From a bacterium (lineage in GTDB: Bacteria > ARS69), in NCBI GenBank assembly GCA_025774865.1, contig JALGZO010000542.1:1-6188 (forward strand): DNA of 6,188 nt. The letters are read 5' to 3'. Numbering within the stretch: position 1 is the stretch's first letter; each line of letters begins with the position of its first letter. The notes beneath the pieces were generated by a model. It saw only the letters and a program-made list of their open reading frames with translations. It was not told where the DNA came from and did not search any database. Made by a program: the position numbers and the translations under genes. Below are positions 1-6,188 of the stretch, piece by piece.

Positions 1-714
1 GCCGTCGGGATCGGTGGCATCGCGCTCGAGAACCTCGATGGCGGCAAAGCCGGTCAGCCCGCGGCGGGTTTGCTTGTAGTCACCGAGAAAGCGCGTCGTC
101 GCGACCGCCGCTCGGTTCGATCGCAAATCTCCCGGCTCCTTCGTCGGAAGCTGGAGGTCGAAACCGACGTTGAGCGTCTGCTTCGTGGGGCCGATCCAGG
201 GAGTCGCCCACGTCAGCGAGAACGAGTCGCGCGCACCGTACCGGCCCCGGCTGTTGATCTGACGGTTCATCCCGCCGAGGTTGCGGATCCGGAAACGGTA
301 GCCGACCGTGAGCTCCTGGTCGGAAAAGTCGTAGTCGATGGTCGGCGTGATGAACCAGCGCGGGCGCTCGAACACCGAGACGACCACGAGCACTCCGTCG
401 GCGGAGGGCACGGCCTCGACCTCCACGTGAGCGAAGATCCCGAGATCGAGGATCCGTTCCCGATCTCGCCACAGGTCGTGGGCTCGGAATGCTCCCCCCT
501 CCTGAAGCCGCATCTCTCGCCGAAACACGATCTCGTGCGTGTGGTTGTTCCCGAGTATGAGAACCTGGTTGACGATCTTGTCTTCGAGGTGGGGATAGGA
601 CTGGTCGTGCAGCCTCTCGATCGCGGGGGCCGCCGTCGCCATCGCGAGCGCCGCCACGAGGGCGCCGACTCGCGCGAGGTTTGCGCGCACTACGGAAGCG
701 GGACGGTGGGCCAT
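1..714 (-). CDS. Omp85/BamA-superfamily outer-membrane protein with one POTRA domain (partial, C-terminus beyond window)
   Basis: The frame runs open from ATG at 714 to base 1, giving 238 residues without a stop; the rest of the gene lies outside the window. Residues about 12-31 form a hydrophobic signal peptide ending in a TAAPA-like cleavage site. Residues about 47-117 read as one POTRA domain: an I-V-N-Q-V strand leading into L-x-G-N-N, a charged helix (EIVFRREM), the DRERILDLGIFAHVEVE segment, and a closing V-L-V-V-V-S-V-F-E strand. From about residue 119 (RWFITPTIDYDF) the chain has alternating aromatic and polar strands like an Omp85 (surface antigen D15) beta-barrel. Family members insert or export proteins at the outer membrane; the substrate here is unknown. 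The gene begins 38 bases after the bactofilin-like gene. An in-frame TGA lies 12 codons upstream and no better start is visible. No clear Shine-Dalgarno is seen, so initiation may be weak or coupled. Family call is strong; exact subfamily is unknown. Confidence 0.85.
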   Translation of the reverse strand, partial: MAHRPASVVRANLARVGALVAALAMATAAPAIERLHDQSYPHLEDKIVNQVLILGNNHTHEIVFRREMRLQEGGAFRAHDLWRDRERILDLGIFAHVEVEAVPSADGVLVVVSVFERPRWFITPTIDYDFSDQELTVGYRFRIRNLGGMNRQINSRGRYGARDSFSLTWATPWIGPTKQTLNVGFDLQLPTKEPGDLRSNRAAVATTRFLGDYKQTRRGLTGFAAIEVLERDATDPDG

Positions 715-752
715 TCTGAATGTTCGGAACTGTGCCCGCAGCGGTCAAGCCA

Positions 753-2033
753 TCAGGTGGAAGGACGCTCCTCGTCCGGCGGCTCACTGGTCGATGCCGG
801 GGGCGGCGGCGGGCTCGGGGCCGCAGGCGGTGGCGGTGGAGGCGGAGCGTGGCCTGAGGGCAGCTCACCGGGCGGCGGCGGCGCGGACCCGGGCGTCGTG
901 GGCCAGCCGCCGTTGGCGGGCACGGCCTGCCGGCCGAAGCGGCTCGTCAACAAGGCCCCGTACCCGAGGATCGAACCGAACAGGATCACGAAGCAGCCGA
1001 CCACGGACAGCATCGTCGACAGAGGCGAGAGGAACCCCCCACCGATCCCGAGGAGCGACCCCGTCAGATCGAGCGCATTGAGCGCGATGTACCCGATGAA
1101 CAGGTAGAAGTACGGACTGCGCGCGACCTGCAGTTCCCCACTCTCGCGCAGGTGCGCGACCCGGCGGCCGACGGCCAGAGACACGGCGAAGAACCCGCCG
1201 AGCACCATCAGGACGACCGCGAACAGAAGCACCGGGATGAGGAGGATTCCGATGATCGTGATCGCGAGGAGAATGATGGAGAGAACGATCGCGATCGGGG
1301 TGCCGAGAGCTCCGACCAGTCCGATCAGGAAACTCTGTCCCGGCTCCGCTTCGATCCGCCGGCTGATCGTCTCGAGCCGGTTCGGGGCGATGGCATAGAA
1401 GATGAGTCCGATGAGCAGTCCGACGACGAGCCACGCCAGCTCGAACCCGAGGGAGAAGTAGCGGGTATCCGGCATGTGCCAGTCGCCGTGCTTGACCCCT
1501 CTCGAGAAGATGTTGAAGCCGAGATCGATGGAGACCGTCTCTCCGCTGACCTCGACTGCGCCGCGCTTGTCCACCCGGCCGCCGACGGACACGACGTCAC
1601 CGTCGACGATGGCGCCCTCCTCCAGGATGACGCTGCCACCGACCGACACGACGTCTCCGATGACCGAGCCGAAGATGATGGCGTCGCCGCCGATGGAGAC
1701 CACGTCCCCTTCGATCCGCTCGCCTTCGAGCACGGTGACGTCGTCGCCGAAGTTCACGCGCTCGCCGGAGCTCTTGTACTCACGATCCGGGTCGCGATCG
1801 CCCCGGTAGCGCTGGTATTCCTCCCAGAGCTCCGTATTGGGCTCAGGCGCATCCGGCGGGTCCGGTGGGACCGGGATCTCGCTGTCGAGACCGTCGATCT
1901 GCCGGTCGACGTCTTCGGCCGTTTCCTGATCCAGAGCCTGGGTGTCTTCTTCCGTCTGAGCGAGCGCGAGCGGCGCGACGAGCAGCGCGGCCGCGACCGT
2001 GAGCAGCGAAGCGCTACGCGAGAAGGCCGACAT
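753..2033 (-). CDS. Exported bactofilin-like polymer-forming protein fused to a multi-pass membrane domain
   Basis: This 426-residue protein has an N-terminal signal peptide (about 6-25, ending LALAQ). An acidic, proline-containing linker (about 26-90) follows. Residues about 95-172 form a beta-helix-like domain with repeated G-D-V-V-S-[IV]-G-G units at 109, 126 and 145 and weaker copies at 96 and 164, as in bactofilin/polymer-forming (DUF583-type) proteins. Hydrophobic segments at about 196-215, 234-290 (probably two or more helices), 308-330 and 338-362 make about five membrane passes. Residues 381-426 form a proline-rich tail. Classical bactofilins are short cytoplasmic filament proteins of roughly 100-200 residues. 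A signal peptide would place this beta-helix outside the cytoplasm, and the membrane domain would anchor it in the inner membrane. The ATG is chosen for a strong AGGGAGG site five bases upstream. The gene overlaps the putative anti-sigma gene by 20 bases and is followed by the Omp85-type gene, suggesting an envelope role. Function is inferred. Confidence 0.85.
   Translation of the reverse strand: MSAFSRSASLLTVAAALLVAPLALAQTEEDTQALDQETAEDVDRQIDGLDSEIPVPPDPPDAPEPNTELWEEYQRYRGDRDPDREYKSSGERVNFGDDVTVLEGERIEGDVVSIGGDAIIFGSVIGDVVSVGGSVILEEGAIVDGDVVSVGGRVDKRGAVEVSGETVSIDLGFNIFSRGVKHGDWHMPDTRYFSLGFELAWLVVGLLIGLIFYAIAPNRLETISRRIEAEPGQSFLIGLVGALGTPIAIVLSIILLAITIIGILLIPVLLFAVVLMVLGGFFAVSLAVGRRVAHLRESGELQVARSPYFYLFIGYIALNALDLTGSLLGIGGGFLSPLSTMLSVVGCFVILFGSILGYGALLTSRFGRQAVPANGGWPTTPGSAPPPPGELPSGHAPPPPPPPAAPSPPPPPASTSEPPDEERPST
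795..893 (-). repeat. Low-complexity tract coding a proline-rich tail
   Basis: On the plus strand this is a run of GGC/GGT/GGA triplets. On the coding strand it gives proline clusters of four, seven and five residues (residues 385-388, 397-403 and 408-412) separated by Ala, Ser, Gly and His. Such tails are usually disordered and may bind partners. The tract is prone to replication slippage, and its length may vary between strains. Confidence 0.8.
1518..1748 (-). repeat. Beta-helix repeat units in the bactofilin-like protein
   Basis: Residues 96-172 contain five spaced copies of a glycine/valine unit. Three are near-identical (GDVVSIGG, GDVVSVGG, GDVVSVGG), 17 and 19 residues apart, flanked by degenerate copies GDDVTV and GETVSI. 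Repeat lengths of 13-19 residues fit rungs of a right-handed beta-helix as in bactofilins. The repeats are also visible in DNA as recurring gtccccgac/acgacgtc-type blocks. Confidence 0.75.
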
Positions 2034-2637
2034 GAACGCCTCCCTGGCGTGGGTTTCTCCCGGTCTGCATCAGCACGTAGGTGACGGTCGCCGCGAGCGC
2101 GAACGTCACGAGCGTCACGGCGATCAACGGCTGGGCCGACGAAGAGAGCGCGGTTCCCGTCGCCTGGACGAGGGTCGTGACGAGCCGCGCGATCCAGTCG
2201 AGCTGAGCCACGGAGCCCGCGTACCCGACGACCGCGTCCGTTGCTCTCCCGAGCGCGGCCGTGGCCGCGACGGCGAGCCGGCCGAGCCAGCTGGCCGGAT
2301 CCGTCGGGAGGAGCCGGGCCGCTCCGAACGTGACCGCGGCGAGCGACAGGGCCCCCGCGAGCACGAACCCATTCTCCAACCGAGCCGGAATCCTCCAACG
2401 CTGTCGCCGGGAAGCCTGGGCCGCGAGGGCCGCGAAGATCCCGGGCAGGAGGTCGGCGGGAGGATCGACGTCCAGGGGCGTGTCTAGGAGCGTGTGGACA
2501 GCGCGGAGCCGCTCGTGCTCCCGCCGCCAGTCCGCACTCTCCCGGACCCGGCGCTCGACGCGCACCCTCTCCGCCGGGGAGAGAAACCCGTCGAGGTAGT
2601 CCTGGAGGCTCTGGGTTCGGTTCCGGTCGCGAATCAT
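2014..2637 (-). CDS. Putative membrane anti-sigma factor lacking zinc ligands
   Basis: This 207-residue protein follows the ECF sigma gene. Residues 10-50 (LQDYLDGFLSPAERVRVERRVRESADWRREHERLRAV) match the pattern of the anti-sigma domain also found in zf-HC2 proteins, usually L-x-x-Y-L-D-G-E-L-S-x-x-E ending H-L-x-x-C-x-x-C. Here the zinc-binding His and two Cys positions read Arg, Ser and Trp, so the domain should be zinc-free. Hydrophobic helices at about 90-110 and 170-191 flank a 60-residue segment, predicting a cytoplasmic N-terminus, a periplasmic loop and a short cytoplasmic C-terminus. The expected role is to hold the neighbouring sigma factor at the inner membrane until a signal arrives. 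ATG at 2637 is supported by GAGGGG eight bases upstream. Other possibility: a membrane protein of unrelated function that only resembles the domain. The call rests on gene order, pattern and topology. Confidence 0.7.
   Translation of the reverse strand: MIRDRNRTQSLQDYLDGFLSPAERVRVERRVRESADWRREHERLRAVHTLLDTPLDVDPPADLLPGIFAALAAQASRRQRWRIPARLENGFVLAGALSLAAVTFGAARLLPTDPASWLGRLAVAATAALGRATDAVVGYAGSVAQLDWIARLVTTLVQATGTALSSSAQPLIAVTLVTFALAATVTYVLMQTGRNPRQGGVHVGLLA
2039..2045 (-). promoter_or_regulatory. Ribosome binding site of the bactofilin-like gene
   Basis: On the minus strand AGGGAGG lies five bases before the ATG at 2033. It is inside the end of the upstream anti-sigma-like gene, so it fixes the start within a 20-base overlap and lets the gene be translated without relying only on coupling. 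Confidence 0.75.
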
Positions 2638-2645
2638 CGCAGATT

Positions 2646-2651
2646 CCCCTC
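2646..2651 (-). promoter_or_regulatory. Ribosome binding site of the anti-sigma-like gene
   Basis: GAGGGG on the minus strand lies eight bases before the ATG at 2637, a normal spacing. It shows that this gene, unlike its upstream neighbours, starts translation independently after a gap. Confidence 0.65.
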
Positions 2652-2664
2652 TGGAGCCGGTTGA

Positions 2665-2729
2665 TCGGGCCCCTTGGCACCTCTCTCTACGGGGGCCGCC
2701 CCCTCAGGGTTGCGGGTCCTGGGGCCCGA
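2665..2729. repeat. 9-bp inverted repeat with 47-base spacer
   Basis: The arms TCGGGCCCC (2665-2673) and GGGGCCCGA (2721-2729) are perfect reverse complements. Each arm also contains the self-complementary core GGGCCC, so they could equally be a direct pair of short palindromic sites for a dimeric regulator. In GC-rich DNA such arms can occur by chance. Confidence 0.5.
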
Positions 2730-2758
2730 GATTAGTCGAATTCGGCCTTTTCGGCAGG

Positions 2759-3361
2759 TCATTCCAGGTCCTCCAGGTTGTAGTCGCGTTCCAGGATCTT
2801 CCGGAAGGCCTCCCGGGCCCGGTGGATCCGGGCCTTCACGGTGCCGAGCGGCGCCTCCAGGATCCGCGCGATCTCCTCATAAGACAGATCGCGCTGGTGC
2901 CGCAGCAGCAGAACCATGCGATGGGCTTCGGGCAGCTTGTCCAGCGCCTCCGCCAGCAGCTCCTGACGCTCGGCCGTCTCCAGATCGCGCTCCGGGTCCT
3001 GCGTGGGGTCGAGGACGTCGCGGGTGACGGTCTCGTCGTCCCCCAGGGAGACCGGGGCGTCGAGCGAGACGGTCTCGATCTTGCGCTTGCGGATGTAGTC
3101 GATGCAGAGGTTCGTCGCGACCCGGTAGATCCAGCTCGAGAACGAGTACGACGGATCGTACTTGCCGAGGGCGCCGTGCACCCGGACGAACACGTCCTGG
3201 GTGAGGTCGCGCGCGAGCTCGCTCTCACGCACCATCCGGTACGCGAGGTTGTACAACCCGCGCTGGTACCGGCGGACGACGACGGCGAACGCGCGATCGT
3301 CGCCGGCGAGAGCTCGCTGGACGTACTCACGATCGTCGATCTCCGCCGGGGGCCCGCTCAT
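2759..3361 (-). CDS. ECF-family RNA polymerase sigma factor (sigma-70 family)
   Basis: The 200-residue length is typical of ECF (group 4) sigma factors. Region 2 spans about 25-93, with the core-binding stretch ARDLTQDVFVRVHGAL and the promoter -10 recognition stretch FSSWIYRVATNLCIDYIRKRK. Region 4 spans about 136-190, with LPEAHRMVLLLRHQRDLSYEEIA and the helix-turn-helix ending PLGTVKARIHRAREAFRKIL, which reads the -35 element. The two regions are joined by an acidic linker (about 107-130). The protein directs RNA polymerase to a dedicated promoter set. The ATG at 3361 overlaps the TPR stop as ATGA. A GAGGAG lies only two bases before the ATG, tighter than usual, so coupling to the TPR gene is likely important. 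The anti-sigma-like gene follows after 121 bases. No C-terminal extension is present. Target promoters and ECF subgroup cannot be assigned from this window. Confidence 0.95.
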   Translation of the reverse strand: MSGPPAEIDDREYVQRALAGDDRAFAVVVRRYQRGLYNLAYRMVRESELARDLTQDVFVRVHGALGKYDPSYSFSSWIYRVATNLCIDYIRKRKIETVSLDAPVSLGDDETVTRDVLDPTQDPERDLETAERQELLAEALDKLPEAHRMVLLLRHQRDLSYEEIARILEAPLGTVKARIHRAREAFRKILERDYNLEDLE

Positions 3362-4614
3362 GGCTCCTCGAACCGGGCGGCCGCCTCGATCGCGCCGTCC
3401 CAGTCCCCCGACTCCGATCGCGCGAGGGCGAGGAAGTACCCGGCCTCATTGCTTTCCGGCATCCGGTCGACCGCGATCGCGAACTGATCGACCGACGCCC
3501 GGACCAATCCGCGACGGCGCAGCTCCTTCCCCGTCGCGAGAAAGAGCGGCCCGGGGACCGCCCCGTTCATCGCCGCCCGCAGCACCGTGAACGACGCTCG
3601 AGCGTCCGGGCGCCGATCGAGCTCCTGATAGAGCGGCGCCAGGACACAGTGCAGGTGCAGGTTCTCGGGATCTTCCAGAAGCCCCTTTTCCCACGCGGCG
3701 AGCGCCGCCTCCACGTCCCCCGCCTCGATCGCGATTGCTCCCTGCACCAGCGCGGTGACCGCGAGCATCGCCGGTGAGGTGTTGCCGGCGGCTTCCCGGT
3801 GACGCCGCGCGGCGGCGCGGGCGCCGTCGAGATCGTCGAGCTCGCGGCGCGCCATCATCAGGAGGTGGAGAGCCTCCACGTGGTCGGGCTCGATCTCGAC
3901 GCATCGCTCGAGCTCCTCGGCCGCCTTCCGGAAGTCGGCGCTGCCGGCCGGATGCACGAGAGCGCGCCCCCGCAGCAGATGAAGTCGCGCCGGCTCGGCC
4001 GTCGTCGTTTCCGGGACGCGCGCGAGGACGCTTTTCGCTTCCGCCGCCCGGTTCAGATCGAGAAGAACTCCCGCGAGCGCGAATCGCGCGGCGTCGAGCC
4101 TCGGATCGAGCTCGATCGCCTGGCGGTAGTCCGCGGCTGCGGCCTCGAGCTTGCCCTGGTTCCGCCGGGCGTCTCCCCGGGCCACGAGAACTCCGGCCTC
4201 GGCCGGACGGCTCCGGCCGAACTCGATGAAGAGCGACTCGGCGGCGGCGAAGCGGTTGAGCCGGTTCGACGCGTCCGCCAGGGCGAGCAACTCGTCGGGC
4301 TCCAGGGGGCGCACGGCCGCGAGCGGCTCGAGATAGGTCGGCACGTCCTCCCAGCGATCCTGCCGGTACGCGAGCACACCGAGGCCGGAGAGCGCGGCCA
4401 CGTGCCTCGGGTCATCGTGCAGGATCCGCGTGAGGTGCCAGAGCCCCGACCAGTCGCGTCCGGCCTGAAGGTCGGCCCGCGCTCGATCGAACCGCGCGGC
4501 AACCTCGGCGGGGCTCGCCGGCGGCGGGCTGTCGGTCTCTTCGCCGGCGCAGCCTCCGGCGAGGACGGCCGCCGGGATGCCGAGCGCTACCATCCGCCGC
4601 CGTGCCGCGTTCAA
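3358..4614 (-). CDS. TPR-repeat protein, probable lipoprotein
   Basis: This 418-residue protein opens with basic residues, a hydrophobic stretch and LAGGC (Cys22), a plausible though not ideal lipobox (Ala at -3), then a Pro/Ser linker. Residues about 36-418 are tandem alpha-helical 34-residue units. The clearest TPR motifs are about 138-171 (GDARRNQGKLEAAAADYRQAIELDP), 211-244 (ending ELERCVEIEPDH) and 285-317 (GAIAIEAGDVEAALAAWEKGLLEDP). Roughly ten units are likely, the last truncated at DGAIEAAARFEEP. TPR arrays act as protein-binding scaffolds. The partner may be the upstream ASPIC/UnbV protein, since TPR and CRTAC1-like proteins commonly neighbour each other. The start is TTG at 4614, overlapping the upstream TGA as TTGA, with GGAGG seven bases before it. 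An ATG seven codons inside (4593) has no evident ribosome site and would shorten the basic N-region. Envelope location is inferred. Confidence 0.85.
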   Translation of the reverse strand: MNAARRRMVALGIPAAVLAGGCAGEETDSPPPASPAEVAARFDRARADLQAGRDWSGLWHLTRILHDDPRHVAALSGLGVLAYRQDRWEDVPTYLEPLAAVRPLEPDELLALADASNRLNRFAAAESLFIEFGRSRPAEAGVLVARGDARRNQGKLEAAAADYRQAIELDPRLDAARFALAGVLLDLNRAAEAKSVLARVPETTTAEPARLHLLRGRALVHPAGSADFRKAAEELERCVEIEPDHVEALHLLMMARRELDDLDGARAAARRHREAAGNTSPAMLAVTALVQGAIAIEAGDVEAALAAWEKGLLEDPENLHLHCVLAPLYQELDRRPDARASFTVLRAAMNGAVPGPLFLATGKELRRRGLVRASVDQFAIAVDRMPESNEAGYFLALARSESGDWDGAIEAAARFEEP

Positions 4615-6188
4615 GATTCACCCTCCGTGATCACGACGGTGCGCCCCGCCGGAACCGCCTCCGCGCGATCGACCGTGCCGCCCGGCCAGCGCACTTCGAT
4701 GTCGCACGTCGACGCCGGGCCGAGACCGCACAGGAGCCGGGGGTCGTTCGACGCGAGGTAGCTGTACGCGGCGCGGGCTTGTACGCGCCGCGTCACGCCG
4801 TCCGCCGTCACGAAGACCTCCGCGCCGTAGCCGTCGCGGTTCGCCTCGATGCCGCGAAGCCGGATTCGCACCCATCCGTTCTCGCCGGCCGTGTCGTTGC
4901 GGAGAATCTGCGGGCGAGCCGCGACGTTCGTCACCACGAGATCCGTGTCGCCGTCGTCATCGAGGTCGCCGAAGAGCGCCGCGCGGCTCGCCTCGATCCG
5001 CGTGACTATCGGGCCCGCTTCGTCGCCGACGGGGACGAAGCGTCCACCCTCGTTCACGAAGAGCTGGTTCGGCTCCTTGTACGTGAGATTGTCGAAGTAG
5101 AGCGGCACGTTGTCCATGATGTGACCGTTCACGACGAAGATGTCGAGATCGCGGTCGTTCTCGAGGTCGAAGAAGCCGGTGCCGAAACCGAGATACGGCA
5201 GCGCGGCTGCGCCGAGACCCAGCTCGTAGGACGCGTCGCGGTAGAAACCGCTGCCCTCCCCGACGTACAGGGCGTTCGCCTCCATGGAAAAGTTCGTGCA
5301 GAAGAGGTCCACGATCTGGTCCTCGTTCACGTCCTGAGCGTCGACGCCCATGCCGGCCTGCGGTTCTCCGGTCCGGCCGAACGCGACGCCCGCGAGCACT
5401 CCGTCCTCGGTGAAGCGGCCGTGGCCATCGTTCAGGAACAACCAGTTCGCCTGTCTGTCGTTGGTCACGTAGAGGTCTACGTCTTCGTCGTCGTCGAAGT
5501 CTCCGGCGACGACGCCCAGTCCGTACGACGGACCGACCTCGTGCACTCCGGACGAGACGCTCGCATCTTCGAACGTGCCGTCGCCGCGGTTGCGGTAGAG
5601 AGCGTCGGGGTCGGGCTTGAAGGAGGCCGGGCCTCCGTGCGTGCGGTAGCCGGGTTTGCGGATCCCGTACCACTCGTGGTCCTCGATCCGGTAACGGAAG
5701 TAGTTGCAGACGTAGAGGTCGAGGAGACCGTCCTCATCGATGTCGACGAACGCGGCGGACGTGCTCCAGCGCGGGTCGCCGAGGCCCGAGGTCCCCGTGA
5801 CGTCGGTGAAACGGCCGGCGTCGTTCCGGTAGAGGCGGTTCGTCCCGAAGTTCGTGACGTAGAGATCGGGATCGCCGTCGTTGTCGTAGTCCCCCACGGC
5901 CGTGCCCATCCCGTAGGTCAGGTCGGCGGCGCCTGCGGCATCGGGGACCGCTCGGAAGAGAGGTGACGACCCGCCCAGGTTCTCGTAGAGCTCGTTCGCC
6001 GGCGGCGCCCCGGCGTAGTCCTGCCCCGGGAGCCCGGCGCCCTGGACGAGGTAGAGGTCGAGGTCGCCGTCGTCGTCCCAATCGATGAGCGCCCCGCCGG
6101 CGCCGAGGAGCTCCACCGCATACTTCTTTCCGGAGGCGCCGTTCCGGTGGACGAACTCGACGCCCGATTGCCCCGTGACGTCGGTGAA
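4611..6188 (-). CDS. CRTAC1-like FG-GAP/VCBS-repeat protein with C-terminal ASPIC/UnbV domain (5' partial)
   Basis: The frame is open from the window end to TGA at 4611, giving 525 visible residues. It begins FTDVTGQSGVEFVHRNGASGKKY, the usual opening of the mature CRTAC1-like domain, so only a signal peptide and a few residues are probably missing. The GTG at 6116 is internal. Seven FG-GAP/VCBS blades carry calcium-loop motifs at about 36 (DWDDDGDLD), 100 (DYDNDGDPD), 149 (DIDEDGLLD), 230 (DFDDDEDVD), 286 (DVNEDQIVD), 341 (DLENDRDLD) and 408 (DLDDDGDTD), fitting an integrin-like seven-bladed beta-propeller. Residues about 438-507 are ASPIC/UnbV: NRDGYGAEVFV, RAAYSYLASNDPRLLCGLG and VRWPGGTVD. 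Such proteins are secreted or surface-attached and thought to bind protein or glycan ligands; no enzymatic role is seen. The stop overlaps the TPR start by four bases. In blades 4-6 the glycine of the calcium loop is replaced by E, Q or R. Ligand unknown. Confidence 0.93.
   Translation of the reverse strand, partial: FTDVTGQSGVEFVHRNGASGKKYAVELLGAGGALIDWDDDGDLDLYLVQGAGLPGQDYAGAPPANELYENLGGSSPLFRAVPDAAGAADLTYGMGTAVGDYDNDGDPDLYVTNFGTNRLYRNDAGRFTDVTGTSGLGDPRWSTSAAFVDIDEDGLLDLYVCNYFRYRIEDHEWYGIRKPGYRTHGGPASFKPDPDALYRNRGDGTFEDASVSSGVHEVGPSYGLGVVAGDFDDDEDVDLYVTNDRQANWLFLNDGHGRFTEDGVLAGVAFGRTGEPQAGMGVDAQDVNEDQIVDLFCTNFSMEANALYVGEGSGFYRDASYELGLGAAALPYLGFGTGFFDLENDRDLDIFVVNGHIMDNVPLYFDNLTYKEPNQLFVNEGGRFVPVGDEAGPIVTRIEASRAALFGDLDDDGDTDLVVTNVAARPQILRNDTAGENGWVRIRLRGIEANRDGYGAEVFVTADGVTRRVQARAAYSYLASNDPRLLCGLGPASTCDIEVRWPGGTVDRAEAVPAGRTVVITEGES
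4622..4626 (-). promoter_or_regulatory. Ribosome binding site supporting a TTG start for the TPR gene
   Basis: GGAGG on the minus strand is seven bases before TTG at 4614, inside the last codons of the upstream gene. It favours the TTG over the in-frame ATG at 4593, which has no comparable site. Confidence 0.65.

Follow-up and report, generated by a model that had tools for sequence, protein, structure and literature searches.

A predicted sigmaW-type envelope-stress operon encoding an exported bactofilin-like membrane protein

Results

Six genes and a predicted internal promoter on one contig

The window, that is, the whole 6,188-nucleotide stretch of DNA analyzed here, is an entire contig (G000:C546; 6.2 kb) of a metagenome-assembled genome of 785 contigs, and each of its ends lies inside a gene. 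The true ends of the cluster are beyond what the window alone can give, as the outermost two genes are cut by the contig ends. A first-pass annotation had described six co-directional genes here, and we confirmed all frames, their location on the minus strand, and the junctions of -4, -4, +121, -20, and +38 bases, which matched exactly (Table 1). That reading had not included two features: the C-terminal multi-helix membrane domain of the bactofilin-like protein and the predicted promoter in the 121-base gap. Within the anti-sigma gene, just upstream of the bactofilin-like start, the sequence carries a Shine-Dalgarno element, GGGAGG. When the window and six related loci were scanned against Rfam, only tRNAs were recovered and no known RNA element in the 121-base gap, and scans of the same gap for sigma-70 promoters and terminators found none.

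Table 1. Genes and predicted elements of the window, in the order of transcription
Feature	Positions	Strand	Basis and remarks
CRTAC1/ASPIC-UnbV protein with FG-GAP repeats	4611..6188	-	5' end cut by contig end; accessory gene
TPR protein, lipoprotein-like N-terminus	3358..4614	-	TTG start; accessory gene; 4-base overlap with sigma
ECF sigma factor, sigmaW type	2759..3361	-	Pfam Sigma70_r2/r4; NCBIfam SigW; 5wuq
SigmaW-type promoter GCAACC-N16-CGTA (predicted)	2688..2713	-	Sigma/anti-sigma gap, ~76 nt before anti-sigma ATG
Membrane anti-sigma factor, N-terminal sigma-binding region (predicted) and two TM helices	2014..2637	-	NCBIfam, hydropathy
Anti-sigma/bactofilin-like overlap, 20 bases	2014..2033	-	Sequence
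Exported bactofilin-like beta-helix, C-terminal multi-helix membrane domain, and Pro-rich tail	753..2033	-	AlphaFold, structural match
Short Omp85 protein, single POTRA and barrel start	1..714	-	3' end cut by contig end; Pfam POTRA

Pfam supported four of the earlier family assignments. The CRTAC1 protein carries both domains of its family (FG-GAP_3, 3e-36; UnbV_ASPIC, 4e-12), and its neighbor matches TPR at 1e-20. The sigma factor consists of regions 2 and 4 only (Sigma70_r2, 1e-20; Sigma70_r4, 7e-16); its best NCBIfam match is SigW (4e-51, below the curated equivalog cut-off), and its closest solved relative is Bacillus subtilis SigW (5wuq, 4e-33). Proteins of the Omp85 superfamily have one or more POTRA domains followed by a 16-strand barrel, and the window protein has one POTRA domain (7e-9) before its barrel is cut off. 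The full-length orthologues in three related genomes (G001, G002, and G003) are ~433-449 amino acids long and match POTRA5 of BamA.

The fifth assignment, that of the anti-sigma factor, is weaker. It rests on a weak NCBIfam match (9e-6), the position of the gene, and two TM helices predicted from hydropathy (~92-110 and ~168-186), and the protein would accordingly be a putative partner of the sigma factor. The zinc motif H-x3-C-x2-C was not found in the four anti-sigma factors checked within the phylum (window, G001, G002, and G003). It is present in G029 and in at least eight of the distant loci described below, in the reading frame lying between the sigma and the bactofilin-like genes. The in-between frames of three loci in the anti-sigma alignment (L044, L059, and L060) look like wrong frames and were not taken as anti-sigma factors.

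A bactofilin-like beta-helix joined to a membrane domain

The gene overlapping the anti-sigma gene had been read as an exported bactofilin, a call that the predicted fold bears out but that is incomplete, since the protein has a membrane-protein architecture of its own and no match to the Pfam bactofilin family (PF04519). In an AlphaFold model built from 28 sequences, residues ~85-170 form a three-sided beta-helix with a pLDDT of 91-97. A predicted N-terminal export segment lies ahead of it, and a helical membrane domain (~190-366) and then the Pro-rich tail follow. Foldseek without re-alignment, run with the whole model, gave no significant match; VIA re-alignment resolved the beta-helix, with Thermus bactofilin 6rib as the best match (Z 10.6, rmsd 2.1 over 81 residues). 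Thermus bactofilin scored Z 10.6 and 9.9 in this ranking, and the next unrelated entry Z 7.6. The Pfam bactofilin profile matched 10 of 35 relatives of the window protein, weakly (best 3e-6). We therefore base the bactofilin call on the predicted fold rather than on Pfam.

The protein thus resembles the bactofilins (BacA/BacM/CcmA), a family that forms filaments independently of nucleotides, in its fold and differs from them in its export and its C-terminal multi-helix membrane domain. Bactofilins are usually cytoplasmic, and ~3% have an N-terminal TM segment (PMC12448750); the passages of that survey consulted here do not describe the architecture of the sigma-operon protein. Separately, near the operon of one distant locus, the opposite strand encodes a further protein with bactofilin-like repeats, larger than the first (L072:9386-12187), and large bactofilin-like relatives also occur in L064, L065, and L068.

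CRTAC1-TPR and Omp85 are local additions

We compared the locus across five genomes of the phylum, a small candidate phylum, all from one family. In G002, which belongs to another genus, the six genes are complete and in the same order, flanked by a divergent enolase gene and rnfC. The G001 contig, which is identical to JAGQIB010000328 (recorded as "Gemmatimonadetes bacterium HKST-UBA01"), starts inside the TPR gene and continues with sigma, anti-sigma, bactofilin-like, Omp85, and rnfC. The genome rated complete, G003, has the sigma, anti-sigma, bactofilin-like, and Omp85 genes between enolase and rnfC; CRTAC1 and TPR are absent between enolase and sigma, and no TPR orthologue was found anywhere in this genome. 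In G004, the Omp85 gene stands at a contig edge, and rnfC follows it, as in G001, G002, and G003.

Where the pair is present, it is closely joined to the sigma gene. The CRTAC1 protein at the same position in G002 is 63% identical, the TPR orthologues adjoining sigma in G001 and G002 are 41-43% identical, and the 4-base overlap of TPR and sigma (ATGA/GTGA) is kept in all three genera that have the pair. Pairs of an FG-GAP/UnbV_ASPIC protein and a TPR protein also recur elsewhere: CRTAC1/FG-GAP/ASPIC paralogue matches number dozens per genome in the five phylum genomes, and TPR frames lie beside at least 7 of the 28 other CRTAC1 loci examined, with no sigma operon. What sets the pair in the window apart is that it directly precedes, and overlaps, an ECF sigma gene. 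Since the pair is absent from this site in G003 and in distant relatives, has many CRTAC1 paralogues, and occurs as a pair without sigma, we consider it accessory, and an insertion between enolase and sigma within the phylum would be the simplest history. As judged from gene arrangement, the pair is translationally coupled to sigma, as its overlap suggests, and lies upstream of and outside the predicted sigma-dependent unit.

The enolase boundary extends beyond the phylum, with a divergent enolase gene directly before sigma in L030, L038, and L059 (the latter two from Eisenbacteria). As a separate observation, a divergent enolase gene and a nearby tRNA gene flank the sigma operon in the phylum, in Eisenbacteria, and in G029 (L026, L028, L030, L038, and L059), an unusually deep conservation.

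The conserved core across about ten phyla

A scan of genome contigs with an alignment of the bactofilin-like protein recovered 38 loci, one of them that of G001; the other 37 form our distant set. The same scan with a single bactofilin-like sequence found nothing. The loci were chosen by bactofilin homology alone, and 24 of the 37 have a co-directional ECF sigma gene shortly upstream of the bactofilin-like gene; a nearby sigma gene is missing in 13. The sigma-bearing records carry about ten phylum names: Gemmatimonadota, Eisenbacteria, Zixibacteria, Acidobacteria/Thermoanaerobaculia, Rokubacteria, TA06, Hebobacteria, Deltaproteobacteria, Gammaproteobacteria, and Anaerolineaceae. Judged by gene order and predicted features, the conserved core comprises an ECF sigma factor, an anti-sigma factor with two TM helices, and an exported protein that combines a bactofilin fold with a C-terminal membrane domain. 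The distant loci yielded no Omp85 of the window's type, and its link to the core therefore appears to have formed only in this phylum.

In other phyla, toastrack genes (DUF4097 or LiaF-like) recur either between the sigma and anti-sigma genes or downstream of the bactofilin-like gene. The window has none; in G000 and G002, toastrack genes are unlinked to the operon and lie behind the same type of promoter. Four distant loci (L037, L041, L071, and L072) represent a sub-type of the operon in which a DUF4097-type toastrack gene stands between sigma and a zinc-type anti-sigma gene, with an exact sigmaW consensus 48-84 nt before sigma.

A predicted sigmaW-type promoter ahead of the anti-sigma gene

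The motif GCAACC-N16-CGTA occurs once in the window, whereas shuffling predicts 0.01 matches. GCAACC-N15/16-CGTA is found in the sigma/anti-sigma gap, within 57-79 nt of the gap end, at each of the four loci of the phylum that allowed the comparison (window, G001, G002, and G003). By pattern search, the 4.7 Mb genome of the window has seven exact GCAACC-type sites, the one in the operon included, no excess over the reversed control (also seven). Because of this, most of the other sites, which mostly lie inside long open frames, are probably chance. The form GAAACC-N15/16-CGTA has a few sites per genome in the five phylum genomes and a low reversed control.

The SigW consensus is TGAAAC-N16,17-CGTA (PMC2375139). 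The -35 element of the phylum is GCAAC(C) and not the exact TGAAAC, so we assign the promoter to this sigma factor on position and conservation, and other ECF sigma factors of the genome could read it. The distant loci contain 19 exact TGAAAC-N16/17-CGTA sites in 585 kb, compared with two in the reversed control. Among the 26 distant sigma loci, 17 have the exact consensus next to the sigma gene, whether immediately upstream or in the gap between sigma and anti-sigma, and nine lack it.

In G003, a second site lies 27-52 nt upstream of sigma itself, and no such site was seen by eye before CRTAC1 in G002. On these grounds, the CRTAC1-TPR insertion may have taken the place of positive autoregulation of sigma and left the feedback promoter of its inhibitor where it was.

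Other genes behind the same motif

As the motif was defined on the operon, its occurrence before other genes provides an independent test. At the site density observed, any given 150 nt upstream of a gene would contain a site by chance with a probability of ~1e-4 per genome. One gene, for an exported protein, was first found through its sites in G001 and G002, and the motif was then also met in G004 and G000; it lies 84 nt upstream in G000 and 62, 82, and 73 nt upstream in G001, G002, and G004. The gene was not found in G003, and the protein family has no Pfam match. Its members (G000:C504:1231-1749, G001:C231, G002:C105, and G004:C61) carry a repeated V-R-x-N-x-P-L motif, and the gene forms a small conserved two-gene unit with a following membrane-protein gene, always behind GCAACC-N16-CGTA.

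Similarly, a small membrane protein gene has the motif 64 nt upstream in G000 and 62 nt upstream in G002, with a GCAACT variant at 72 nt in G001, and a DUF4097 toastrack gene has it 51 nt upstream in G002, with a GCAACT variant at 50 nt in G000. In G001 only, DUF4870 and DUF7670 membrane protein genes (G001:C480 and G001:C143) have the motif 69 and 74 nt upstream. LemA, near a site in G002:C236, was not accepted as a target because that site lies 315 nt upstream.

Discussion

Overall, we consider the core likely to be a sigmaW-type envelope-stress operon under autoregulation, with targets that include its own anti-sigma factor, a bactofilin-like scaffold in the periplasm, and a short Omp85 protein. 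The two-TM anti-sigma factor would hold the ECF sigma factor at the inner membrane, and envelope damage would free it to direct RNA polymerase to GCAAC-N16/17-CGTA promoters. As the nearest of these lies between sigma and anti-sigma, the freed sigma factor would raise its own inhibitor, a negative feedback. The same promoter would also raise the bactofilin-like protein, periplasmic and anchored in the inner membrane, and, in this phylum, the short Omp85 outer-membrane protein. Unlinked targets would be the DUF4097 toastrack, the exported protein with its following membrane protein, and the small membrane protein. In this scheme, the bactofilin-like protein would most likely be the main effector, a scaffold bracing the envelope, and less likely a sensor; Omp85 would serve the outer membrane, and CRTAC1-TPR would bring a read-through route to sigma expression.

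The bactofilin-like protein might instead act as the sensor, its beta-helix and membrane domain binding the TM or periplasmic part of the anti-sigma factor and controlling sigma release. It is the recurrent third partner of sigma and anti-sigma in about ten phyla, its membrane domain would sit beside the two TM helices of the anti-sigma factor, and the 20-base overlap of its start with the anti-sigma end argues for coupled synthesis. However, it is encoded downstream of the sigma-dependent promoter, as effectors are, and an anti-sigma/beta-helix fusion suspected in G013 was not confirmed; we regard a sensor role as rather unlikely. We are equally doubtful of its boldest form, a widespread and undescribed switch for envelope stress whose ECF sigma/anti-sigma pair is gated directly by a bactofilin-like polymer, exported and anchored in the membrane, with the state of this periplasmic scaffold being read as transcription.

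Less probable still is a single six-gene module for envelope assembly or sensing, as first proposed, in which CRTAC1 and TPR provide a surface input to the sigma pathway, with Omp85 delivering CRTAC1 or the TPR lipoprotein to the cell surface. The full order in G002 and, within its contig, in G001, together with the TPR/sigma overlap in all three genomes, agrees with it. However, complete G003 keeps the other four genes at the eno/rnfC site without the pair and has no TPR orthologue elsewhere, several of the many CRTAC1 paralogues stand beside TPR frames away from any sigma gene, no sigma-type site was seen by eye upstream of CRTAC1 in G002, and the internal promoter divides the halves. The locus is better described as two units, the predicted switch with its internal promoter and, ahead of it in some members of the phylum, an unrelated surface-protein pair, in keeping with the distant loci in which enolase is followed by sigma. 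The broader idea of a regulated envelope module is supported: a promoter of the sigma factor's type lies ahead of the anti-sigma, bactofilin-like, and Omp85 genes, and conserved copies of it stand before other envelope genes. Finally, an accidental co-orientation of unrelated genes, which a 6.2 kb contig of a fragmented genome with both ends inside genes might suggest, is highly improbable, as other genera share the order and the core is met again across phyla, and for the core this synteny rules chance out.

Envelope regulons under sigma/anti-sigma control, bactofilins, toastrack systems, and pairs of CRTAC1 and TPR genes are all known kinds. The operon resembles SigW/RsiW of B. subtilis in having a sigma factor closest to SigW, a SigW-type promoter in its own operon, a membrane anti-sigma factor, and envelope targets. 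It differs in that the anti-sigma factor of the phylum lacks the zinc ligands of the zinc-type RsiW, whose stepwise proteolysis activates SigW, the promoter has a GCAAC -35 element and lies between sigma and anti-sigma, and the operon includes an exported bactofilin-like protein and Omp85. With the Lia/PSP toastrack systems it shares toastracks (DUF4097/LiaF-like), which stand within such operons in other phyla and here are predicted to be unlinked targets; unlike in those systems, no LiaRS, PspA, or LiaI-LiaF-TM was noted in the operon. According to a survey of toastrack/PSP systems, some toastrack contexts include a sigma factor linked in the operon; the main text of that survey makes no mention of bactofilin (PMC11237479). 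The survey argues that the toastrack domain is intracellular, whereas the predicted-target toastracks here start with signal-peptide-like segments. A literature search for bactofilin with ECF/anti-sigma factors or toastracks, whose reach ended short of most subscription journals and supplementary ECF classification tables, returned nothing relevant. The sigma/anti-sigma/exported-bactofilin operon is thus apparently undescribed.

Our analysis ties an orphan type of protein, exported, bactofilin-like, and missed by most profile libraries, to the control of envelope stress in about ten named phyla, mostly ones known mainly from metagenomes. It supplies a specific promoter motif together with a small set of predicted targets, and it sets a conserved set (sigma, anti-sigma, bactofilin-like protein, and promoter) apart from local additions (Omp85 and CRTAC1-TPR). 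The latter pair illustrates how inserted genes can bring a sigma factor under the transcription of another gene while its feedback promoter is kept.
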